A DNA stretch of 64,000 nucleotides from Pseudomonas sp. FP453 (lineage in GTDB: Bacteria; Pseudomonadota; Gammaproteobacteria; Pseudomonadales; Pseudomonadaceae): positions 4,344,501 to 4,408,500 of the forward strand of contig NZ_CP117435.1 of NCBI RefSeq assembly GCF_030687495.1, given 5' to 3'. The translations under genes and the position numbers were made by a program. The notes under the pieces are model-generated. The model ran no database searches. It had not been told where the DNA came from and saw only the letters and a list, made by a program, of their open reading frames with translations. Shown here in pieces: positions 1-12,143 of this stretch (position 1 is its first letter; every line of letters begins with the position of its first letter).

Positions 1-605
1 CCGCCGCCCGCCTGGCGGCCGTTGCCGATGCCCAGCGCGAGCAGGTCGCCTTTCCAGTGGAAGCCCGGCCCTTCCAGCTCACCGTAAGCCGCCTTCAGTT
101 CACTGAAACGGGTCAAGCCGGTAAACAGGTAGGCGGCGCCACCGAGGACCTTCTTCAAGTCTTCGGAGGTGTTGGCCGTGACCTGGCTGCCGAAGCCGCC
201 GGTGGCCATGTTGAGGAAGATCTGCCCGCCGGCCTGGCCCAGGTCGATGGCCCTTGGCGGCACATCCAGCAGCGCCAGCGCCTGGGCCGGCTCCAGCGGC
301 ACGCCGGCGGCGCGGGCGAAGTCATTGGCGGTGCCCAGGGGCATCAGCACCAGGCTGGCGTCGGTCTTGGCGTGGGCCATCGCTTCGGCGACGTCACGCA
401 AGGTGCCGTCGCCACCGCCCGCGATCAAATGGGTGTAGCCCGCATCCAACGCCTCATGGACCAGGCGCTCGGCATCACCGCCCTCCCACGTGACCCGTAC
501 CGCCAGCTCCCAGCCCTGCTCACGCCGGGCCTGCACGGCCGCGCGTACGTCCTCGTTGAGGGCTTGCTTGCCGTGGAGGATCAACAGTGCCTTGGGGCTG
601 GTCAT
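1..605 (-). CDS. yegS: YegS/DAGK-type lipid kinase, C-terminus cut by window edge
   Basis: The reading frame opens at an ATG at 605 (MTSPKALLIL...) and runs off the left edge, leaving about 201 residues. It contains the diacylglycerol-kinase nucleotide-binding motif GGGDGT (in LIAGGGDGTLRD) and the following PLGTANDFAR segment, both hallmarks of the YegS/BmrU/DAGK catalytic domain. The family phosphorylates lipids such as phosphatidylglycerol or diacylglycerol at the membrane. YegS is normally about 300 residues, so roughly a third is missing beyond the window. The 92 bp between it and the upstream lipoprotein gene hold nothing recognisable. Family assignment is firm; the exact substrate cannot be read from sequence. 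Confidence 0.85.
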   Translation of the reverse strand, partial: MTSPKALLILHGKQALNEDVRAAVQARREQGWELAVRVTWEGGDAERLVHEALDAGYTHLIAGGGDGTLRDVAEAMAHAKTDASLVLMPLGTANDFARAAGVPLEPAQALALLDVPPRAIDLGQAGGQIFLNMATGGFGSQVTANTSEDLKKVLGGAAYLFTGLTRFSELKAAYGELEGPGFHWKGDLLALGIGNGRQAGG

Positions 606-1270: not shown

Positions 1271-1373
1271 AACCTGTGGCGAGGGAGCTTGCTCCCGCTG
1301 GGCTGCGCAGCAGACCCAAAAAGCATGGGAGCGCTTCGCACTCCAGCGGGAGCAAGCTCCCTCGCCACAGGTT
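1271..1373. repeat. REP-type long inverted repeat (GTGGCGAGGGAGC family)
   Basis: Two 31-nt arms at 1271-1301 and 1343-1373 are exact reverse complements (AACCTGTGGCGAGGGAGCTT... and its inverse), separated by about 41 nt. This is a REP doublet of the family containing GTGGCGAGGGAGCTTGCTCCC, known from P. fluorescens-group intergenic regions. It differs in sequence from the GTGGGAGC-type doublets found elsewhere in this window. It lies between two lipoprotein genes and may stabilise or terminate transcripts. Confidence 0.9.
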
Positions 1374-1399: not shown

Positions 1400-1726
1400 T
1401 CAGGGCTGGCGGCAGTTCTGGTTGACCGACAAGTTCGGCGCCGGCTCATAGCTCACGCGCTGCAAGCCATCGGCGCCCTGGAACAGGAAGTACTTGGCGC
1501 GGCAGTCCTTGAACATCGGCGAATACCCCTCGGCCCGGAAGCCCTGGCCATCGACCTGCTTGGTCACGGTGTTGTTGCGGCTGACCACGGCCAGCACCTT
1601 CTGGTAGCTGTCACCCATGTTCACCCCGGGCTCGCCGGTGATGGCCGCCGACGAGGCGCAACCGCCCAGGGTGATTGCCGCCAGCACCAGTGCAGCGCCG
1701 TACAGTCCATTGCGTAAAGTGTTCAT
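1400..1726 (-). CDS. Putative lipoprotein, unknown function (108 aa)
   Basis: The N-terminus is a clear lipoprotein signal ending in the lipobox ITLGGC with Cys at about residue 23, followed by a mature part of about 85 residues. Two further cysteines (FKDCRAK and NQNCRQP) may pair in the periplasm. The mature sequence GDSYQKVLAVV...VTKQVDGQGFRAEGYSP suggests a small folded domain, but I cannot assign a family. It sits 24 bp downstream of the lipoprotein gene abutting the haemagglutinin gene and could belong to the same transcript. An accessory or immunity role is only inference from position. Confidence 0.7.
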   Translation of the reverse strand: MNTLRNGLYGAALVLAAITLGGCASSAAITGEPGVNMGDSYQKVLAVVSRNNTVTKQVDGQGFRAEGYSPMFKDCRAKYFLFQGADGLQRVSYEPAPNLSVNQNCRQP

Positions 1727-1750: not shown

Positions 1751-2062
1751 TTAACGGCGGCCGTCACAGACCGGCGACTCACCGATACGGCCGAGCTTGC
1801 ACAGGTCCATATTGTCTTTACGCGTGAAGCCTGCGTCCTTCATGCAGTAGAAGCGCGTCAGCACCACATCGATCGGCGAGTTGTCTCCCGTTCCCGCCAA
1901 GTTGGTGTAACCGCAGGCGCGCATTGCACTCTTGACGCCCTCTAAAGAGACTCCGCTTTTTTGCCACTCGGTGAAATCCGGAGGCGGCGGTTGAAAGCCC
2001 CTTCCTGTACAGCCGAGCAATAGGAAAACGCAAACACTCGACAGCAAACTGCTCCTGAACAT
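1751..2062 (-). CDS. Small lipoprotein downstream of TpsA; candidate immunity protein
   Basis: The ORF can start at 2077, overlapping the tpsA stop as ATGA, or at the ATG at 2062. The second has a good ribosome binding site (AGGAAGG a few bases upstream), which itself lies over the tpsA stop region, so I chose it (103 aa). The start MFRSSLLSSVCVFLLLGC is a lipoprotein signal with the acylated Cys at about residue 18. The mature part has the pattern W-x-K-x-G, then a CGY, then FYCMKDAGF, which resembles small proteobacterial lipoproteins with paired Cys residues. Its position directly after a large exoprotein is that of cdiI-type immunity genes. Periplasmic lipoproteins are also typical immunity partners of phospholipase effectors. 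The immunity role is inference. Confidence 0.7.
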   Translation of the reverse strand: MFRSSLLSSVCVFLLLGCTGRGFQPPPPDFTEWQKSGVSLEGVKSAMRACGYTNLAGTGDNSPIDVVLTRFYCMKDAGFTRKDNMDLCKLGRIGESPVCDGRR

Positions 2063-2073
2063 GACGCCCTTCC

Positions 2074-5000
2074 TCATTGTTTGACGCGCATGAAATGTGA
2101 CATGCCATCGGGTGAGTCCATCCAGAATGGCCGGCAGTTATCCCCGCCCTTGCCATAGCAGTTATGCACGGTTTTATCGCCGCCCAGCACTTTCAGCCAC
2201 TCCCACAGGCGGACGCTGCCATCTGGAATCGTACCGCCAGTCCCGGCGTTGAAACCTACGCCCGGTGTCCGCGCAACGGGGTCGAAATTGTGGTTCTGGT
2301 ACTGCAGCGCCATCGCCTCGCGCTGTGCTTCAAAACTGAGCGATGAACGGTCCTGCAAGACCCCCAGCAGCGAATCGGCCTTTTGCACGCTGTAGGCCGC
2401 GCCGAAGAAGTTCATCGACGTGCCGCCCAGCACACCCACGTTTGCCGGATCACGCGCCAACGACTCCATCGCACTGCCCGTGGTCAACGTGCCACGGCTG
2501 TGACCATCGATGTGTAGCCCGCTTTGACCAAACTGGACCATATAGTCCTTGGTCTGCACGGCTGCGTTGGACAAGCCCCAGAAATCATTTTCGAAATTCT
2601 TCTGATAGGCCGCGATCATCAACTCGGACGTGAAGTTGTTGGCTTTCTCGAAGTGGATCAAATACTGCGGCCCGGTATCGGCACTGCTGTGTTGTTCGGC
2701 ATATTTGGCCGCACCGTCGATGTCGTTGAAAATACCGTTGTTGGCAATGTGTACCTTGCCATCCGGCCCAGGCTTGAGGTTGCGCTTTTCTTCGTCGTTC
2801 AATTCCCGGCGCTGAACGTTGCCCTTTTCATCGAGCATCGCCTTGCCATCTTTGTCTTTCAACACCTCATACACCCGCGCCTTCTCAAGGAAGATCTTGC
2901 GATACGCCTCATCCGCCAGCATCGACACCTGGTTGTAGAACTCACGCTTGATCTCTTGCTCAGCCTCGACCTTGCGCCCCATCTCCGCCACGTCCAGGCG
3001 CTCCACGGCAACGTGGGCAGCCTCGGTATTGCGGTTGAGGTTGGCAATCGTCTGGTCAACCGTCATCCCGGCGACCACGCGCTGGCGCTCGGCATTGGTG
3101 ATCACCAGGGTGCCGGCGCTGATGGCGCTGCGGGTATCGCTGTCGGCGGAGTCGGAATCCGAACCGTTGGCGAGGCTGTTGGCGAGCAGCGCCTTGGCCG
3201 TGCCGAGCTTGCCGTCGAGCATGTCCGAACTGAGCTCCACCCCGGAAGTCTTGACGCTCGCTTCGGAGGTGTTGTGGATGTCGGCCACGGTCAGCGTGCC
3301 GGTGGTCAGGCTGTTCTTGCCGTCGGCGATGGCCTTGTCGGTGCTGGAAATCACGCCGCCCTTGAGGTCGGTGTTGCCGCGCACGTTGAGGTCGAAACCG
3401 CCGTCGCCGGCGCGAATCCCCGATTGCTCGATGACGCTGGCAAAGTTGGACTTCTGCTTGGTGTTGCTGGAGCTGAAGCTGGCCGTTGCAGCGCCGGCGC
3501 AGACCGGCGGGATGCAGATGCTGATGCCGGCACTCATGCTCTTCTGCTCGGAGGCAAATGTGCTGGTGTCTTGCAGGCTCTCGATATTCAAGTCGCCGCC
3601 GACGTCGGCCTTGACCTTGTCAGCCGAGACCACCGCGCCGCGCAAGGTGGTGTCCTTGCCGGACACCAAGGTTGCCTGATTGCCCGCCGTCACATGGGTA
3701 TTGCTCCAGACCAGGTCATTGCCATCGGCATTGCCGCGGCTTTGGGACGCCGAAGCGTTGAAGCTCAGGCCGTTCTTCTCGCTGCCAAAGGAGATGCCGA
3801 TCCCCAGGCTGCCGTTCACGCTTTTGTTCGTGCTGTGTTGCTCGATGGTGTTCTCAGCACCCGCCAGCAGGATATTGCCGTCGGCCTTGAGCAACGCATC
3901 GTTGCCGGCAGTGATCTGGCTGCCCTGCACCGTCAGGTCGTTATTGCGCTTGCCGCCGGTGGCCACAATCGACACATCGTGCCCTGCCGCCACGGTCGAG
4001 CCGGCCGCCGTGTTGGAGGTCTGCTCGCTTTTGTTCTCGCTCTTGTTCATACCCAGGGCGATGCTCAAGTTGATCCCGCCCGCCGCTGCCGGGTCGGCCA
4101 TCACTTGGGTATGTGCTTCGGTGCCGGCCCAAAAGGTGTTCAGCGCGGCCAGGGTTTTCATGCGTTTGTCGTCGGTGCGCTCGGCGGCCTTGTTCATGCG
4201 CTGGCCGGTTTGCACGGCGTTGACGATCGGGTTGGTCAGGGTCAGGCTCACGCCGGTCTGCTTGAAGCGCTGCTCCTGCTGCTGCGCGGCAAGGTTGCGC
4301 GCTTCGAGGATATTCACCTCGGACGCCTCGATCGACACATCGCCCTTGGGCGCGCTGACATTGCTGCCGACTTGGCGGTATTCGCCACCGGAGCTGATCA
4401 GCACATTGCCATCGGTGGAACCCACACTGCTGGCGGCGGCCGTGGTCTGCTGGCTGCTGTCCTTGTTGGTCTGTTGCTGCGAGCCGATGGTGACGGCAAT
4501 CGCGCCGCCGCTGAACATGCCGCTGGTCTTCACGTCCTTGGTGTGTTTTTCGTCGAGGGTCTCGGTGGCCGCCAACACCTTGATGTCATTGCCCGCCACC
4601 AGCGCCGTGCCCGAGGTCGAGACCACGTTGCTGCCGGTAATGGTGATGTTGTTGCCGGCCTGCATCACCGCCTGCTCGCCGCTGAAGGTCGAGCCTTGCG
4701 CGGTGGTCTGGGCCACCGTGTCACGGGTGGTGGTGGTCTTGCTGGAGAACATGCCGTTGCTGCCCTTGACCTTGTGCGCCTCATCCGCCGTGCTGAAGCG
4801 CTCGCTGGCTTCGACGTTGATATCGCGGTTGGCGCTGACGGACACGGCACCGGCGTCACTGTTGACCAGCGCGCCGCGTGCCTGCACGTCACGCCCGGCG
4901 CCCAGGCGGATATCGCCCGTGGCTTGTACCGAGCTGCCGACTTCGCTGCGCCCGGCTTCCTTGCGCCAGTTGTCGCCGTCCCATTGGTTGGCCTGGGTGA

Positions 5001-8000
5001 AGGACTCGTTCACCGTGCTCAAGGTGATGTCGTTGCCCGCCACCAGCGCCGTCTTGCCGCCGACGCCGGTGTTGCTGACCTGGGCCGCTTGCAGGTTGAT
5101 GTTGTTGCCGGCGGTGGCAATCAGGTTGGCCGCCGGTGCCGACACATACAGCCCTGCTACACGCGACAAGGCGGTGCGGGTGCCCTGCGCGCTTTCGCTG
5201 TCGGTGGTGATCGAACGCACATTGATGTCGTTGCCGGCACTCAGCGCCAGGCGACTGTTGGCGCTGATCAGGCCGCCGATGTTGTTCAGGTCCTGGCTGG
5301 CATTCAACGACACGTCGTTGCCCTGGATGCGCCCGCCGAGGTTGTTGAGGTTCTGCACACTGACGTTCACGCCATCGCGCCCGGAAAGACTGCCGCTGTT
5401 GACCAGGTCACCGCGCACGTCGAGGTTCAAGGTGCGCCCGGCCATCAGCGCGCCGGAGCCGTCGATATCACCCTCACGCACCCGCACGTACACCTGCGGC
5501 ACCAGCACCTTGCGCACTTCGCCGCTGGCCAGGGTCACGTCCTTGGACACCAGCCACACGATATCGCTGGTCAGCTGCGCCATTTGCGCGGCGGTCAGCG
5601 CCACGCCCGGGATCAGCTTCCACTGATCGGCCAGGGTCACCGCGCTGTCGATCATGCCGCGGTACTGCGCTTCGTCACTCGCATAGCCGTCGACAAAACG
5701 GCGCCCGGTGAGTTGGGCGACTTGTTCGCGGATCAGCTTCTGCTCGTAGAAGCCATCGCCGAGGCGCTGTTGGGTGCCAGCCGGGTCGAGGTTCAGGCGT
5801 TCGAGCATGTAGTCCGAGGACAGCCACTTGCCGTAGTTGGCGAAGCGCGGGTCGGTCTCCACCAGGTAACCGGCGGTGCTGTTGGGGTTGATCTGGTACA
5901 GGCTGCTGTTGGGCAGGTCCGGGTTGAAGCCACCGGTACGGATCTGCTCTACCGCGCCGCCGGCGTTCTGCTGGGTCAGCGCTTGCACTTCGCTGATCGG
6001 GGTCACCGCATAGGTACGCCCGGCACCGGCCAGGTCACCCGTGCCGGCCGCGCTGTCGGTGACCTTGGCCAAGACCAGCGCGCCCACCTGGGTGCCCGTG
6101 CCGTTGATCGCCGCGTACTCGGTAAACACCGTCGGTTTCAGCGAGATCTGCTCGATCAACGGCGCCGGGGTATACGCCGTGACGTTAAGGCCCTGGCGGT
6201 CACGGCCTTTGCGCTGGATACGGTAGTAGCTGGCCAACGTGCCGCTGTCGGTGGTGACCTTCTGCCCAGTCAGTTCGGTGTTGATCACCGTGCCGACGCT
6301 GGCATTCAGCGCCTGGCCGGCGATGATCCGGCTCTTGTCGTTGAACACCTGGTCGGCAATCAGGTTGATGTTGCCACCGGCAAGGATCTGCGCCGGGTCC
6401 GAGGCGACGATCTGCGTCTCGGTGACGGTGCGGTTGTAGTCGTAGCGGAGCCAGCGCGTGCCGTAGCCTTCCGGTGTCACCAGGTGCAGGACTTCGTCGT
6501 TGTACAGCGAGATCTGCCCCGGCAGGTAGCGGTTGGTCGAGCCCGACAGCAGGTATTCCTGCAAGGCCTGGGTGGACACCTGCACCTGCTGGGTGGCGAA
6601 GTGTTCGTTGGTGTTGTTGATCTGCTTGGCGTTGACGCTGAGGCTGCCCAGCGCTTCGACGGTGGCGCTGGCGTTGTTCAACACCTGCGCCTGGCCCGTG
6701 GCCTGGTCATTGGCATCCAGGGCGCCGCCGATCAGCAGGTTGCCGGTGCTGAAGATCAAGCCGTGCTCACGGTTGTTGATGACCTGCGCGCCGATATCCA
6801 GGCGGTTGCGTGCGGCAATCGTCGCCGCCGATGCGCCTTCGACGGTGTTGTTCAGGGTGCCGGCGGAGATGCCGAGCAGATCGCCATAGATGCGCCCGGT
6901 GCCGAGGTTGTTCAGGGTCGCGGTGGTCAGGCGCGTGGCCTCGCCGTCGATCAGCCCACGGTTGTCCAGTTGTGTGGCCGCGCTGACCTGCACCTTCGGC
7001 GCACTGATCACACCGCTGGCGGTGTTGTCGACAACGTTGGCGTCGAGGCGCAGCAGGTTGCCGGCCTGGAGCGCGCCCTGGTTGGTCAGGCGCCCGCTGG
7101 TGGCCAGCGACACGTTGCCATTGGCCTGGAACAGGCCGTTGTTGACGAAGTCCTGGGTCAGGCGGAAGGTCAGGTCACCCAGGCTGAGAACCTTGCCGTT
7201 GCCGCCGTAGCTGGCGCTGTCGAGCAGCAGCGATTGCCCGGCGATCAGGGTGCCCGCGCCGTTATTGATAGCCTGGCGTTTTTGCGCGAGGTCACGATCG
7301 GCCACGGTCAGCGTGCTGCCAGCCGAGATGATCCCTTGTTCGTTGTCCAGGGTGCCGCTGCCGGTAACGCTCAGCGTCGTGTCGGCGACGATCGAACCGC
7401 CACGGTTGCTGACGCTGTCCGCATCCATCGCGACGGACTGGCCCTTGATACCCTGGTTGGCGCCCTGGGTGCTGCTGTTATCCACACTGGCAGCGGTCAA
7501 CAGCAGGTGCCCGTCGGCGCGCAACAGACCGGCCTGGTTGCTCAGGTGCTGGGCGTTGACGTCCAGGGTGGCGGCGCTGCCGATAAAACCCTGGTCGTTG
7601 AGCAACTGGCCCGCACGCACGCTGACGTCGCGCTGGCCGAGGATGCCACCGGTGCTGCCGGAGTTGCGGTTGCTCAGCTGTTGGCCGTGGGTGTCGATCT
7701 TCAGGCTCGACTTGGCCTGCACGATGCCGCCGTCGTTGTTCAGCACGCCGCTGTCGACGGTCAGGGTATCGCTGGCATTCAGGGTGCCCTGGGCGTTGTT
7801 CAATTGCTGGCCCTGGGTGTTGAGCAACAACTGCGCGCCGGTGATCACCCCGCTGCTGTTGCTCAAGCCTTGGGCGTTGACGGTCAAGGCCTTCGCGGCT
7901 TCCAGACGACCGCCGGTGTTGTCGAGCGCCGTTGCGTCGCTGTTGAGCAGCAGGTCGCCCGCGACCGAACCGAGGGTCCCGCCCTGATTCAGGACGCTGC

Positions 8001-9840
8001 CGGCCTTGACCGTCAGCGTCTGCGTCGCCGCGACGGTGCCCTTGGCATTGTTCAATTGCGCGGCGGTGACTCCCAGCGCGCCGCCGGCGGTGATCTGCCC
8101 GTTGCTGTTGTCCAGGGTGCCGCCGTTGAGGGTCAGCTGCGCGGCGCTCACCAGCTTGCCGTTGCCGTTGGCCAGGTGCTGGCGGGCGGTGACGGACAAA
8201 TCGCCAAGGGCACCGGACTGCACCAGGCCGCCGCTGTTGTTCAGGCTGTCGGCACTGACGTCGAGGCCGCCGCCGCTGGCGAGGATGCCGCTGCTGTTGT
8301 CGAGGTTGCGGGTGACGCTCACGCGCATGCCGGCAGTGCCGGTCTGCACCCATTTGCCGCCGACGTTGGACAGGTCCAGCGCGGTGACGCCGATCTGCGC
8401 CGCGCCGACCTGGGCGGCATCGCTGAGCAGGGCCTGATTGGCGTTGGCGGTCAGCGCCTGGCTGGCGGTGACGCGGCTGCGGCGCAGGTCCAGATTGCCA
8501 GCGGTGCTGGTCAACGCGACGGTCTGGGCCGAGGTCTGGCTGTCACTGAGGTCAACCTGCGCGGCGTTGGCGGTAAGCTTTTGCGCCGCAAGGTTCTGCC
8601 CCTTGGCCGTGATCGTGCCGGCCGAAGTCAGGGTGAGCGAACCACTGTCGCCGAGCTTGCCGGCGCTGTCGACGCCCGCCGCGAGTGCGGAACCGGCGTG
8701 GCTGCGAATCGCGCCCTTGGCGGTCAGGCGCGCATCGCCCTGGGCGGAGGCAATGCCCTTGTTATCGATATCGGCGGCGGTATTCAGGTCCAGGTTGCCT
8801 TGGGCGTACAGCGTGCCGCTGTTGTCGATGCCCTTGTCAGCGGTGGCCGTCAGCTGGGTCGCGCTGCTGATCTGGCCACGGTTTTCGATGCGCCCGTCAC
8901 TGCCAATCACCACTTCACCGGCACTGGAGCCGATCTGCCCGGCGTTGCGCACGCCCACGCCGGCGCCGTTGCCCACCAGGGTGATCTTGCCGGCATACAT
9001 GCCGCCCAGTTGCGCCACGTCGATGGCTACCGCTGGTGTGTCAGCGGGCGCGGCACCGGTGGTGCCCGCCTTGATCGTCAGGTCCTTGGACCAGATGCCC
9101 GCGTTGACTTCGACCGTGCGCGCAATGATCTCGGTGTAGTCGGCGCGGCTGCTGTCCATGCCTTCGCCACCGATGCTGATCTTGCCGCCCGAGACCTGGT
9201 AGCCGCTGATCAGGCCATTCTCGAACTGCGCGCGCCCGGTGGTCAGCGTGGCGCGGTCGGCGTTGATAAAGCCGCACCCTTCGCACGCGATGCCCGACGG
9301 GTTGGCAATCACCACCTGGGCCTTGGAACCGGCCACTTCGACAAACCCGCGCAACTGGCTCGGGTTGCTCGAATTGACTTCGTTGAGGATCACCCGCGCG
9401 CTGCCATTGGCCAGCGCACGGTTGCCTTCGATCCAGCCGGCCAGCTGGGTCTGGCTGTTGGTCGCGGCGTTGTTGAGGATCACCCCGCGCTTGTCCACGT
9501 CGAACTGCGAATAGGTGTTGCGCGACACGCCTGCGTCGCTCGGGCGGGTGATGTCCACCACCGGCGCGCCATTGCCAGCGGCACCGATGGTCGGGCGTTG
9601 GCCCGCCGGTGCCGAGCCATCGGCCACGATCTGCGCCTGCACCGGCGCCACCAGAGTGACCCAGCCCATGCCCACCATCAGCGCAAACCGCAGCGGCGTG
9701 AGGGTTGCCGTCACCGGGCTGACCGAGGACACGCCGCGCGTGGTGCCGGGGGCCTTGCAGGCGCTCTTGACGTTCTCGGCCACCACCATCAGCAGGCCGC
9801 GGGCCTTGTTGAATACAACTCGAAACAGATGCTTATTCAT
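2074..9840 (-). CDS. TpsA filamentous haemagglutinin-type exoprotein with hydrolase-like C-terminus (2588 aa)
   Basis: The start at 9840 has AAAGGA 7 nt upstream. Residues 1-26 form an extended signal peptide (ESPR type), with a second hydrophobic stretch at about 52-68 and likely cleavage near residue 70. Residues 70-330 are the TPS secretion domain, including NPSGIACEGCGF (about 180-191) and ATLTTG. A very long beta-helical region of haemagglutinin repeats (NNxGG, LxNxxG, AGxxL units) follows to about 2100. The last 250 residues are globular and contain GHSRG with Ser2448, DPVARTP with Asp2520 and VHNCYG with His2559, in the order of an alpha/beta-hydrolase triad. No VENN motif or recognised nuclease toxin domain was seen. 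The protein is exported by the TpsB encoded upstream and may be modified by the HlyC-like enzyme between them. Adhesin and effector roles are both possible. Confidence 0.93.
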   Translation of the reverse strand: MNKHLFRVVFNKARGLLMVVAENVKSACKAPGTTRGVSSVSPVTATLTPLRFALMVGMGWVTLVAPVQAQIVADGSAPAGQRPTIGAAGNGAPVVDITRPSDAGVSRNTYSQFDVDKRGVILNNAATNSQTQLAGWIEGNRALANGSARVILNEVNSSNPSQLRGFVEVAGSKAQVVIANPSGIACEGCGFINADRATLTTGRAQFENGLISGYQVSGGKISIGGEGMDSSRADYTEIIARTVEVNAGIWSKDLTIKAGTTGAAPADTPAVAIDVAQLGGMYAGKITLVGNGAGVGVRNAGQIGSSAGEVVIGSDGRIENRGQISSATQLTATADKGIDNSGTLYAQGNLDLNTAADIDNKGIASAQGDARLTAKGAIRSHAGSALAAGVDSAGKLGDSGSLTLTSAGTITAKGQNLAAQKLTANAAQVDLSDSQTSAQTVALTSTAGNLDLRRSRVTASQALTANANQALLSDAAQVGAAQIGVTALDLSNVGGKWVQTGTAGMRVSVTRNLDNSSGILASGGGLDVSADSLNNSGGLVQSGALGDLSVTARQHLANGNGKLVSAAQLTLNGGTLDNSNGQITAGGALGVTAAQLNNAKGTVAATQTLTVKAGSVLNQGGTLGSVAGDLLLNSDATALDNTGGRLEAAKALTVNAQGLSNSSGVITGAQLLLNTQGQQLNNAQGTLNASDTLTVDSGVLNNDGGIVQAKSSLKIDTHGQQLSNRNSGSTGGILGQRDVSVRAGQLLNDQGFIGSAATLDVNAQHLSNQAGLLRADGHLLLTAASVDNSSTQGANQGIKGQSVAMDADSVSNRGGSIVADTTLSVTGSGTLDNEQGIISAGSTLTVADRDLAQKRQAINNGAGTLIAGQSLLLDSASYGGNGKVLSLGDLTFRLTQDFVNNGLFQANGNVSLATSGRLTNQGALQAGNLLRLDANVVDNTASGVISAPKVQVSAATQLDNRGLIDGEATRLTTATLNNLGTGRIYGDLLGISAGTLNNTVEGASAATIAARNRLDIGAQVINNREHGLIFSTGNLLIGGALDANDQATGQAQVLNNASATVEALGSLSVNAKQINNTNEHFATQQVQVSTQALQEYLLSGSTNRYLPGQISLYNDEVLHLVTPEGYGTRWLRYDYNRTVTETQIVASDPAQILAGGNINLIADQVFNDKSRIIAGQALNASVGTVINTELTGQKVTTDSGTLASYYRIQRKGRDRQGLNVTAYTPAPLIEQISLKPTVFTEYAAINGTGTQVGALVLAKVTDSAAGTGDLAGAGRTYAVTPISEVQALTQQNAGGAVEQIRTGGFNPDLPNSSLYQINPNSTAGYLVETDPRFANYGKWLSSDYMLERLNLDPAGTQQRLGDGFYEQKLIREQVAQLTGRRFVDGYASDEAQYRGMIDSAVTLADQWKLIPGVALTAAQMAQLTSDIVWLVSKDVTLASGEVRKVLVPQVYVRVREGDIDGSGALMAGRTLNLDVRGDLVNSGSLSGRDGVNVSVQNLNNLGGRIQGNDVSLNASQDLNNIGGLISANSRLALSAGNDINVRSITTDSESAQGTRTALSRVAGLYVSAPAANLIATAGNNINLQAAQVSNTGVGGKTALVAGNDITLSTVNESFTQANQWDGDNWRKEAGRSEVGSSVQATGDIRLGAGRDVQARGALVNSDAGAVSVSANRDINVEASERFSTADEAHKVKGSNGMFSSKTTTTRDTVAQTTAQGSTFSGEQAVMQAGNNITITGSNVVSTSGTALVAGNDIKVLAATETLDEKHTKDVKTSGMFSGGAIAVTIGSQQQTNKDSSQQTTAAASSVGSTDGNVLISSGGEYRQVGSNVSAPKGDVSIEASEVNILEARNLAAQQQEQRFKQTGVSLTLTNPIVNAVQTGQRMNKAAERTDDKRMKTLAALNTFWAGTEAHTQVMADPAAAGGINLSIALGMNKSENKSEQTSNTAAGSTVAAGHDVSIVATGGKRNNDLTVQGSQITAGNDALLKADGNILLAGAENTIEQHSTNKSVNGSLGIGISFGSEKNGLSFNASASQSRGNADGNDLVWSNTHVTAGNQATLVSGKDTTLRGAVVSADKVKADVGGDLNIESLQDTSTFASEQKSMSAGISICIPPVCAGAATASFSSSNTKQKSNFASVIEQSGIRAGDGGFDLNVRGNTDLKGGVISSTDKAIADGKNSLTTGTLTVADIHNTSEASVKTSGVELSSDMLDGKLGTAKALLANSLANGSDSDSADSDTRSAISAGTLVITNAERQRVVAGMTVDQTIANLNRNTEAAHVAVERLDVAEMGRKVEAEQEIKREFYNQVSMLADEAYRKIFLEKARVYEVLKDKDGKAMLDEKGNVQRRELNDEEKRNLKPGPDGKVHIANNGIFNDIDGAAKYAEQHSSADTGPQYLIHFEKANNFTSELMIAAYQKNFENDFWGLSNAAVQTKDYMVQFGQSGLHIDGHSRGTLTTGSAMESLARDPANVGVLGGTSMNFFGAAYSVQKADSLLGVLQDRSSLSFEAQREAMALQYQNHNFDPVARTPGVGFNAGTGGTIPDGSVRLWEWLKVLGGDKTVHNCYGKGGDNCRPFWMDSPDGMSHFMRVKQ

Positions 9841-9864
9841 GCAGATCCTTTGCGCGGTGGCTGA

Positions 9865-10386
9865 TCAGAGCGCGTCGCTGGGTAACGGGTGAGTGGCAAA
9901 CCAGGCTTGCGCCTCCAGGTCCAGGACGGCGATGCCCTGGAAATTCAAGACGCGCAAGCCGCGCGCTTCGCCTTTGTGGTGCAGCGCGCGAAACACCTTG
10001 CCGGGCCACAAACGGCGGCGCAGCAAGCTGCTGATGCGCCGGGTGTGGCCAAACGGTGCGACCCAGTCGTTGATCCACAACCGCTCGCCGCTGTCCCAAT
10101 CCTCGGCGGGCAGGCACACCGCCGGTGCCCGCAGGTAACGTGCCTCGGCGTCGGCACTGAGGTTGAGCCACGAGAGGAAAAACACCGGCCGCCCGCCTTC
10201 GCTGATCAAGATGAACTGGCGCCGCTTGATCGCCGGTAGCAACAGCGTCGACAGGCTGTGCAACGGCGCATCGCGATGGGCCGCCGAGTGCATCCACAGC
10301 CACACCGCCGAGCCCAGCACCTGGGCTTCGTCGATGGGGCTGTCGGCCCGCTCGGGGGCGAGCACCTCCAGGGTATCGTGCTGCAT
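9865..10386 (-). CDS. HlyC/CyaC-family toxin-activating lysine acyltransferase
   Basis: I start it at the ATG at 10386 because AAGGAGG lies 5 nt upstream; the frame extends to a TTG at 10401 without a better signal. The 173-residue product follows HlyC along its length: W-x-x-x-S-x-x-H-R (catalytic-type His37), LPAI-x-x-x-QF, SW-x-NLS-x-x-x-E-x-x-YL, and EDW-x-SG-x-R-x-W-x-x-DWVAPFG with the partner Asp107. HlyC enzymes transfer a fatty acyl chain from acyl-ACP to internal lysines of RTX toxins in the cytoplasm. No RTX protein or type I exporter is present. The gene sits between tpsB (12-nt overlap with the longer frame) and tpsA (24 bp gap), so the likely substrate is the haemagglutinin. I recall hlyC-like genes in meningococcal TPS loci as well. 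Confidence 0.88.
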   Translation of the reverse strand: MQHDTLEVLAPERADSPIDEAQVLGSAVWLWMHSAAHRDAPLHSLSTLLLPAIKRRQFILISEGGRPVFFLSWLNLSADAEARYLRAPAVCLPAEDWDSGERLWINDWVAPFGHTRRISSLLRRRLWPGKVFRALHHKGEARGLRVLNFQGIAVLDLEAQAWFATHPLPSDAL

Positions 10387-10397
10387 GCTGGCCTCCT

Positions 10398-12143
10398 TCA
10401 AAATGACCAGTTGGCGCTGAAGCCACTGGTCACGTCGGCGGTCTGGAAGCCCTTGGGTTTTTCCAGGGGCTTGCCGGTGTAGATGTCATAGGAAAACTGC
10501 TTGTAGCCGCCACGCAGGCCCACCACCGCACCGGCCAGGCGTCGGCCCGAGAGGTACTGGGTGGAATGCCCGCCGACTTCGCCATAGTCCACGCCCAGGT
10601 AGAGTTCCTGGCCGGTGTTGGCCAGGCTCAGGCCGAGGTCGTTGCTGAAGGTCCAGCCGCGTTCGGCCGAGAGGATCTGCTCGCCGTCGAAACCGCGCAC
10701 GGTGTAGCGTCCGCCAATCGAAAAGCGGTCCTGGGGGATCAGCGGCGTACGGTTCCACTGCCCGCGCCAGCCGGCGATGTAGCGCAGGCGTTGGTCGGCC
10801 AGGGTGAACGGCAGCTGCAATTGGGCGTTGGCGGTGATGATCTGCGAGCGCGAGGTGCCTTCGCCGTTTTCCTCTTCAGGCGCGCGCAATGCATCGCGGG
10901 CGCCGGTGCCACGGCGATAGCCGACGCCGAGGTCGAGGGTGCTGGCGCCGATGAATTCACGGTGGTTGATCCCCGCCTGCCAACCGGCCATGCGCCGGCG
11001 TTGCAGTTCGATCTCGGTGTCTTCGATGTAGTTGCTGGAGGTGCGGCTCCAACCGCCGACCGACACGGTGGTCTTGCGCACCGCATCGCGGTAGATCACC
11101 CGTGACAGTTGCACCTCATTGGTCCGGCTGCGGCCACTGTAGGAATACGCCTGGTTCACCCCGGCAATCGTCTGGTGGTAGTCGTACTCGCTGGACGTCA
11201 GGCTCAGCTGCCAATAGTCGTAGGGCACCGAGTAATGCACGGTATGGCCCTTGGAACCACGGTCGCCACTTTGGCCGCCGCCCAGATCATGGTTGAAGCT
11301 GATGTAGAACAGGTCGTTGAGGCTGGCCAGGTTATCCAGCGACAGCGCGACGTTGCCCTGGTACTTGCCGGTCTGCTTGCTGCCGGAATCGTCCACCGAC
11401 AGGCTGACCCGTACCGGAATCGCCTGCTTCCAGGCGATCACCACATCGCTCTCGCCGGGCTGCGCATCCGTGCCTTCGGCCGGGGTGATCTGCACGTCGG
11501 CTTCGGCGGTGGGCACGCGCTTGAAGTTCTCCAGCGCCTGCTCGATGTCGCGCAGGTTCAGCACATCACCCGGCGATGCGGGCATGGCGTTCCAATAATT
11601 GGCGCGGGCGGAGGTGCCTTCGGCAAAACGGATGTGCTTGATCCGCCCCGGCACCAGCACCAGCGACAGCGTGCCCTGGTTCAAGTCCTGGGCCTCGGCG
11701 AGGACACGGGTGGTGATGAAACCCTTGGCGATGATCGCGTTTTGAATGCGCTTCATCGTCAGGTTGATACCGGCGGAACCGACGCAACGCCCTTGCACAG
11801 GATCGTCCGCCGGGTTGGCGGCGCGCAGGGCCCACTGGAAGTCTTCGGCCTGCTCGCCACGGAGGACCACGCGGTCGATCTTGAAGCACGGCGTTTCATT
11901 GCGCGGCAGACGCAGGTTGCCGGCGCTGTCCAGCGGCGCTTCCAGACGGACGTCGGGGGATTGCTCCAACTGCTCGCGCTGGGCGCGTTCACGTTGTTGC
12001 TGCAGGAGTAATTGTTGGGCAGGTGCTTGCGGTTCAGCCGCTAAAGCCGATGCACTGGTCAGGAAACCGACAAGGGAACAGGTGGCGACGCAAGACTGCA
12101 GCAAAACAGACGGTTTTGTTCTAGGTAAAGCGTCGAAAGACAT
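10398..12143 (-). CDS. TpsB outer-membrane transporter (ShlB/FhaC family)
   Basis: The ORF is open upstream to 12212, but the ATG at 12143 (MSFDALPRTK...) is preceded by AAGGA and begins a plausible signal peptide ending around ALAAEPQ. The 581-residue product has an N-terminal Gln/Arg-rich helix (QQLLLQQQRERAQREQLEQ), a POTRA region (CFKIDRVVL...RIQNAIIAKGFITTRV...LVLVPGRI) and a C-terminal 16-strand barrel. The L6-loop motif VRGF is present in GGRYTVRGFDGE. The protein ends in Phe (SANWSF), as outer-membrane barrels do. The family recognises the TPS domain of its partner in the periplasm and threads it to the surface. It is the first gene of the tpsB-hlyC-tpsA operon. Confidence 0.93.
   Translation of the reverse strand: MSFDALPRTKPSVLLQSCVATCSLVGFLTSASALAAEPQAPAQQLLLQQQRERAQREQLEQSPDVRLEAPLDSAGNLRLPRNETPCFKIDRVVLRGEQAEDFQWALRAANPADDPVQGRCVGSAGINLTMKRIQNAIIAKGFITTRVLAEAQDLNQGTLSLVLVPGRIKHIRFAEGTSARANYWNAMPASPGDVLNLRDIEQALENFKRVPTAEADVQITPAEGTDAQPGESDVVIAWKQAIPVRVSLSVDDSGSKQTGKYQGNVALSLDNLASLNDLFYISFNHDLGGGQSGDRGSKGHTVHYSVPYDYWQLSLTSSEYDYHQTIAGVNQAYSYSGRSRTNEVQLSRVIYRDAVRKTTVSVGGWSRTSSNYIEDTEIELQRRRMAGWQAGINHREFIGASTLDLGVGYRRGTGARDALRAPEEENGEGTSRSQIITANAQLQLPFTLADQRLRYIAGWRGQWNRTPLIPQDRFSIGGRYTVRGFDGEQILSAERGWTFSNDLGLSLANTGQELYLGVDYGEVGGHSTQYLSGRRLAGAVVGLRGGYKQFSYDIYTGKPLEKPKGFQTADVTSGFSANWSF

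Follow-up and report, generated by a model that had tools for sequence, protein, structure and literature searches.

What does a giant two-partner-secreted exoprotein carry at its C-terminal tip, and against whom is it directed? This question is raised by a stretch of 64,000 nucleotides from Pseudomonas sp. FP453 (NZ_CP117435.1, positions 4,344,501 to 4,408,500; the window, below), whose source genome is a single contig of 6.28 Mb and in which the genes run in the order tpsB, hlyC-type acyltransferase, tpsA and a small lipoprotein gene. The exoprotein TpsA had been read in an initial annotation as a filamentous haemagglutinin that delivers a lipase or phospholipase at its tip rather than acting only as an adhesin. 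The cassette formed by this tip and the lipoprotein gene behind it instead suggests a bacterial contact weapon together with its antidote in the cell envelope, and not a plain adhesin.

The initial annotation had proposed a catalytic triad in the tip, and Ser2448 (in GHSRG), Asp2520 (in DPVARTP) and His2559 (in VHNCYG) stand exactly where it had placed them in the 2588-residue minus-strand open reading frame (ORF). Their conservation exceeds chance. Among 25 aligned sequences, that of the window included, which form 19 clusters at 85% identity and contain tips down to 19% identical to the window tip, Ser2448 and Asp2520 are invariant (25/25 sequences and 19/19 clusters each), and His2559 is kept in 24/25 sequences and 18/19 clusters, the alignment being gappy near this residue in L031 and L032 (L and G numbers are our handles for loci and genomes). 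Free replacement of Ser2448 or His2559 among homologues, named at the outset as the outcome that would speak against the triad, did not occur. Arg2449, Glu2406 and Tyr2393 are likewise present in all 25 rows, and His2517, within NHxxDPV, was set aside as a candidate catalytic histidine as it is conserved less (20/25). Of the GxSxG elbow originally described, the serine elbow stands and the first glycine does not, since it occurs in 16/25 rows only; across these sequences HSRG, not GxSxG, serves as the family motif. Elbow variants replace HSRG in two relatives, QSRSG in L030 and LSRG in L034, with Ser, Asp and His retained, and these two tips may differ in activity. The cysteines already noted in HNCYG and DNCRPF correspond to Cys2561 and Cys2569, each found in 22/25 sequences and both absent from the same three (L030, L031 and L032), a joint absence that fits an extracytoplasmic domain with a putative disulfide near the catalytic His.

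The C terminus of TpsA does leave the repeats, as first described, with the Pfam families ESPR and TPS and haemagglutinin repeats upstream and zero families at E 10 on the last 259 residues. The domain border drawn at window position 2640 did not hold, and the domain begins earlier, taking in an NGIFN motif (Table 1). In the predicted structure of the window tip, a strand (153-158) leads to Ser159 and then a helix (160-173), and in that of the L070 tip a strand (141-147) ends at Ser147, followed by a helix (148-162). Fold matches of the two models include lipases, cutinases and a phospholipase A1, and also cover thioesterases and carboxylesterases; for the better model, the top rows by VIA are Obc1, cutinases and a phospholipase A1. 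Nearly all of the best 50 rows of each fold search are of the α/β-hydrolase fold, judged by title or by what is known of the protein, with clear non-hydrolase titles numbering two in one search and three in another. A structure library of viral proteins gave zero matches at E ≤0.001, and a PDB sequence search with a single tip sequence gave no significant match. A profile of 22 tips, which leaves aside the partial or duplicate loci L001, L002, L012-L016, L018, L020-L022, L025, L029, L033 and L036-L038 (L018, L020 and L021 enter other alignments), returned five PDB matches, of which four are α/β-hydrolases, weak at E 0.22-1.8; among the alignments shown, three matches align at the nucleophile elbow. 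Pfam matches of the 22 tips themselves are weak, with DUF7379 in two (best 0.012) and Abhydrolase_5 in one (0.029).

Because conservation, two models and fold matches agree, the tip is almost certainly an α/β-hydrolase with the Ser-Asp-His order first proposed, and a plain adhesin with a chance GHSRG is ruled out by conservation and fold. Membership of the class-3 lipases was not borne out: the window domain has no Lipase_3 match, or any other Pfam match, at E 10, and Lipase_3 is not among the ten families matched by the 22 tips. Of the proposed lipase tip, the hydrolase domain has been upheld, while the lipid substrate is something we infer. A different family offers a closer fit. The motifs published for Tox-ABhydrolase2, a predicted toxin domain whose target was left unclear where it was described (Zhang et al. 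2012, PMC3482391), are NG, [DE], [KR], HSxG, D and H, and all are present in this order as N2368-G2369, E2406 (25/25), K2414 (23/25), HSRG, D2520 and H2559, where E2406 and K2414 as the [DE] and [KR] are our own reading. As every listed motif fits, the tip is probably a member, judged by the motif list.

The main clue to what this domain is for comes from comparison with L023 (Pseudomonas sp. KBW05). DNA identity between the two is 96% over tpsB, hlyC and the tpsA backbone, falls to 75% over window 1751-2900, borders that we set by eye from the identity profile, and is 96% again beyond. Synonymous divergence (dS) follows the same course, at 0.127-0.164 for tpsB, hlyC and the backbone, 1.22 for the tip, 1.39 for the lipoprotein gene, and 0.095 and 0.18 for the next two genes past it, an approximately eightfold rise at the cassette over its flanks. 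Since it is dS that jumps in both tip and lipoprotein gene, the pattern speaks for a diverged allele having come in rather than for protein-level selection alone, and for the two having been replaced together. L021 and L022 display the same trend less sharply; in L017, L019 and L020 the protein identity of the tip lies within or above the backbone range, while its dS is above that of every backbone segment. The locus thus displays a trait of contact-dependent growth inhibition (CDI) systems, namely a variable C terminus exchanged together with the adjacent gene on a conserved backbone. Exchanged as one cassette with a lipoprotein behind a CDI-type tpsB-hlyC-tpsA operon, the domain has the appearance of a toxin with its immunity partner more than of an exoenzyme aimed at a host. 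The feature itself is well supported, and a contact-toxin cassette explains it better than an adhesin with a lipase tip.

The lipoprotein gene overlaps the tpsA stop codon and encodes a hydrophobic start with the lipobox LLGC, giving 108 residues from the overlapping ATG or 103 from position 2062. Such genes follow hydrolase tips specifically. A detector with one fixed rule, a lipobox in an ORF ≤450 nt behind the tip, which was written after seeing the genes behind hydrolase tips, found one behind 21/24 hydrolase tips against 0/20 non-hydrolase tips on like backbones, the latter chosen from 40 matches for which no hydrolase was known (Fisher p 1e-9, an optimistic value as the loci are related). 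By eye, the next ORF has a hydrophobic start followed by a Cys in the three loci that the detector missed (L030, L031 and L032), and the count was left at 21/24. Outside the genus the lipoproteins differ, with about 300 residues in L027, L028 and L030, 129 in L026 and 113 in L035, and the family has no Pfam match at E <0.06.

The lipoprotein is also found on its own. Its profile matches 21/199 genus genomes, with several of these matches incomplete or broken; an intact hydrolase tip is present in four of the 21 (G000, G079, G121 and G143) and a fragment in two (G004 and G136), and the other 15 gave no tip match in a sequence search, with the more sensitive profile run on a few of them. Seven genomes that lack an intact tip supplied eight intact lipoprotein genes for comparison. 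In G101 and G197, where the site has the same flanks as in the window, tpsA has been lost along with nearly all of tpsB, and the lipoprotein gene is intact. Judged by substitution rates among those eight genes, chosen for an intact frame near that of the window, with partial, broken and double-domain matches excluded, the orphan genes are under purifying selection (G191 against G052: nonsynonymous divergence, dN, 0.041, dS 0.318). Lipoprotein genes stand in tandem in L019 and L069, and L106 carries tip and lipoprotein with no full tpsA within 18 kb. In L085, L087, L088, L090 and L096, proteins of about 220 residues apparently contain two copies of the lipoprotein domain, and the hydrolase motif was not flagged in the listed part of the short stretches covered there.

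The backbone is modular. The module preceding the tip (residues 2101-2300) matches 38/199 genus genomes at E 1e-20; of 30 loci fetched from 44 listed matches, four run into the same hydrolase tip and 26 show no HSRG in the stretch covered, which in 22 of the 26 ends before the stop codon. Twenty non-hydrolase matches read to the stop codon, 16 of them from those 26, all lack the HSRG motif. In G136 a CdiA-like protein (L101) shares 51% identity with residues 1-2333 of TpsA, after which the two diverge. The last 259 residues match 14/398 Pseudomonas genomes, partly as fragments only, and the window tip is 100% identical to that of Pseudomonas sp. CBZ-4 (L016). A 14-row tip profile matches 7/369 genomes of the class and 6/398 of the phylum, each count including the window's own genome and G649 appearing in both; outside the genus, seven of ten matched frames have 1979-3259 residues, the others being L029 (152), L034 (661) and L036 (1009). 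Plasmid and phage records searched for the tip gave no match, and five scans of a viral-contig collection yielded the useful loci L069 and L070 (L071 duplicates L069), two scans yielding none. Extra tip or backbone fragments occur in L032, L034 and L070. On the L070 contig, a single ORF (116-595, plus strand) fuses an immunity-type lipoprotein with a short hydrolase piece, and downstream of it lie backbone fragments and an intact tip; the same contig bears a putative integrase-like ORF.

These observations lead us to the following scheme. TpsB would export TpsA, and the HlyC-type enzyme would probably acylate it, as the gene order suggests by analogy to CdiC of class IV CDI. When the cell touches a neighbour, the hydrolase at the C terminus would be delivered into the periplasm, where Ser2448, Asp2520 and His2559 would hydrolyse an envelope ester, most likely of a membrane phospholipid. 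The adjoining lipoprotein, probably anchored at the periplasmic face of the outer membrane, would be the cognate immunity protein and block the toxin arriving from siblings. The computed basis of this scheme is the predicted fold, the conserved triad residues, the operon, the cassette exchange, the lipoprotein association and the persistence of lipoproteins without a toxin. That tip and lipoprotein form a toxin/immunity pair is very probable. We consider it likely that the toxin would act in the target envelope, because its partner is a lipoprotein, the cysteines are co-conserved and TpsA has no pretoxin match in a search confined to Pfam profiles; the pretoxin motif is found in many CDI toxins but not all, one class being listed with the motif 'none' (PMC4725963). 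Taken as a whole, the reading as CDI-type two-partner secretion of an enzyme that would act in the envelope, with a lipoprotein for immunity, is also probable.

The substrate is less certain. Phospholipid is preferred because Tle3 and TslA, two antibacterial hydrolases whose immunity proteins (Tli3 and TilA) are lipoproteins, are phospholipases in the accounts cited below, and because lipases are among the best structural neighbours; we regard it as about evenly balanced. The α/β-hydrolase fold spans many activities, thioesterases and carboxylesterases are among the fold matches, and Zhang et al. (2012, PMC3482391) do not settle what the similar Tox-ABhydrolase2 acts on, so the pair could act on a non-lipid substrate such as a thioester, a peptide or an ester on an envelope surface glycan; given those phospholipase precedents and the Obc1, cutinase and phospholipase A1 rows that head the better model's matches, this seems rather unlikely. 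A catalytically dead hydrolase that serves TpsA structure or processing, to which the altered elbows of L030 and L034 might point, is very improbable when the triad is retained across relatives as distant as those aligned here.

Other explanations concern the lipoprotein or the target organism. BcpO, a predicted lipoprotein of Burkholderia CDI loci, is described as one whose loss reduces CDI activity (PMC9086364), and the direct overlap with tpsA would also suit an accessory for TpsA secretion or folding rather than an immunity protein. Such a role is improbable, as the lipoprotein was swapped together with the tip while the remaining tpsA stayed nearly identical, is found behind hydrolase tips and behind none of the 20 other tips, and survives where tpsA is lost. 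It is slightly less probable still that the exoprotein is an adhesin or lipase directed against plants, insects or protists: papers exist on Pseudomonas two-partner secretion proteins and plant or insect hosts (e.g., PMC7784888, as far as its subject indicates) and the fold is cutinase-like, but the co-swapped lipoprotein, the tandem lipoproteins and the orphan cassettes would be left unexplained.

Table 1. Features of the tpsBA locus and its exchangeable cassette (window coordinates)
Feature	Position	Strand	Evidence
tpsB, outer-membrane transporter (CdiB/ShlB-like), 604 residues	10398..12212	-	Pfam ShlB 1.4e-104, POTRA_2, POTRA_3
HlyC-type lysine acyltransferase (CdiC-like)	9865..10401	-	Pfam HlyC 7.7e-34
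tpsA, CdiA-like exoprotein, 2588 residues	2074..9840	-	Pfam ESPR, TPS, Fil_haemagg, Fil_haemagg_2
C-terminal α/β-hydrolase domain, residues ~2345-2588	2077..2808	-	Alignments, models, fold searches
NGIFN, residues 2368-2372, closes early core strand	2725..2739	-	N2368 22/25, G2369 24/25
Ser2448, predicted nucleophile in HSRG	2497..2499	-	25/25; strand-Ser-helix elbow in both models
Asp2520, predicted catalytic acid	2281..2283	-	25/25
His2559, predicted catalytic His	2164..2166	-	24/25
Cys2561 and Cys2569, possible disulfide at His loop	2134..2160	-	Each 22/25
Predicted lipoprotein, candidate immunity protein	1751..2077	-	Lipobox LLGC, tpsA overlap, co-exchange with hydrolase domain
Exchanged toxin/immunity cassette (hydrolase tip and lipoprotein)	1751..2900	-	Identity and dS profile against L023

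The HlyC-type gene, whose earliest in-frame ATG lies at about 10386, is present in 10/13 loci searched at 55-99% identity; of the misses, L104 and L069 begin within tpsA, and coverage of the interval in L070 was not established. Beyond the candidate immunity gene lie two more small lipoprotein genes (window 1400-1726 and 698-1249, both minus strand), which fall outside the exchanged cassette and remain at the tpsA-less site of G101 and G197, where the first is 81-82% and the second 75-78% identical. Between them, at window 1271-1370, is an inverted repeat of the type gcgagggagcttgctcccgc / gcgggagcaagctccctcgc, which we take to resemble Pseudomonas repetitive extragenic palindromic (REP) elements. 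Antisense to nearly all of tpsA runs an open frame of 2446 codons (window 2524-9864, plus strand), probably an effect of codon composition. Five proteins queried in PADLOC gave no match.

In gene order, the locus equals class IV CDI, which is reported to have the order cdiBCAI, with CdiC lipidating the receptor-binding domain (PMC8510554, PMC9086364). Shared with it, as far as those accounts describe it, are the succession of a transporter, an HlyC-type acyltransferase, a giant CdiA-like protein and a small downstream gene, as well as an exchangeable C terminus with its immunity gene and the occurrence of orphan modules (orphan pattern in PMC9086364). The class IV example described there carries Ntox25 and dissipates the proton gradient, whereas here a hydrolase with a lipoprotein partner is found and no Pfam pretoxin match. 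Tox-ABhydrolase2, in turn, is described with filamentous haemagglutinin repeats, with type V secretion among its routes and in proteobacteria, all of which apply here, although the immunity partner named in that paper is Imm-SUKH and not a lipoprotein (PMC3482391).

In a literature search judged mostly from titles, with subscription papers and preprints outside its scope, we found no hydrolase toxin described that is exported by two-partner secretion and has a lipoprotein as its immunity protein. We are evenly divided on whether this could be the first CDI-type system with an envelope-acting enzyme toxin, that is, a two-partner-secreted phospholipase that would not enter the cytoplasm, with outer-membrane lipoprotein immunity and a range of lipoprotein partners across further genera within the class and phylum. 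If so, CDI filaments would also be capable of enzymatic attack on the envelope, and, since an envelope toxin would need no inner-membrane receptor, the system could be used to test where delivery stops. A function would also be assigned to a toxin family predicted in 2012 and to a small lipoprotein family that has no Pfam match at E <0.06.

Comparable cases are found in other secretion systems. Tle3, an effector of the type VI secretion system (T6SS), is likewise an α/β-hydrolase, a phospholipase A1 reported to be neutralised by an outer-membrane lipoprotein, Tli3 (PMC9860674); its delivery differs, and the likeness is one of description. TslA of the type VII secretion system (T7SS) is described as a phospholipase A with a Ser-Asp-His triad and an immunity lipoprotein, TilA, whose family occurs in variable tandem clusters (PMC10730906), although this system is Gram-positive and its toxin domain N-terminal. 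Lipolytic passengers are themselves familiar to type V secretion, as in the autotransporter lipases EstA and PlpD; the account cited places such lipases in types Va and Vd (PMC6555100), unlike the type Vb arrangement with a toxin/immunity cassette seen here. The tip and lipoprotein of TpsA would, if our reading is correct, constitute the type Vb counterpart to the Tle/Tli pairs of the T6SS and the TslA/TilA pair of the T7SS.
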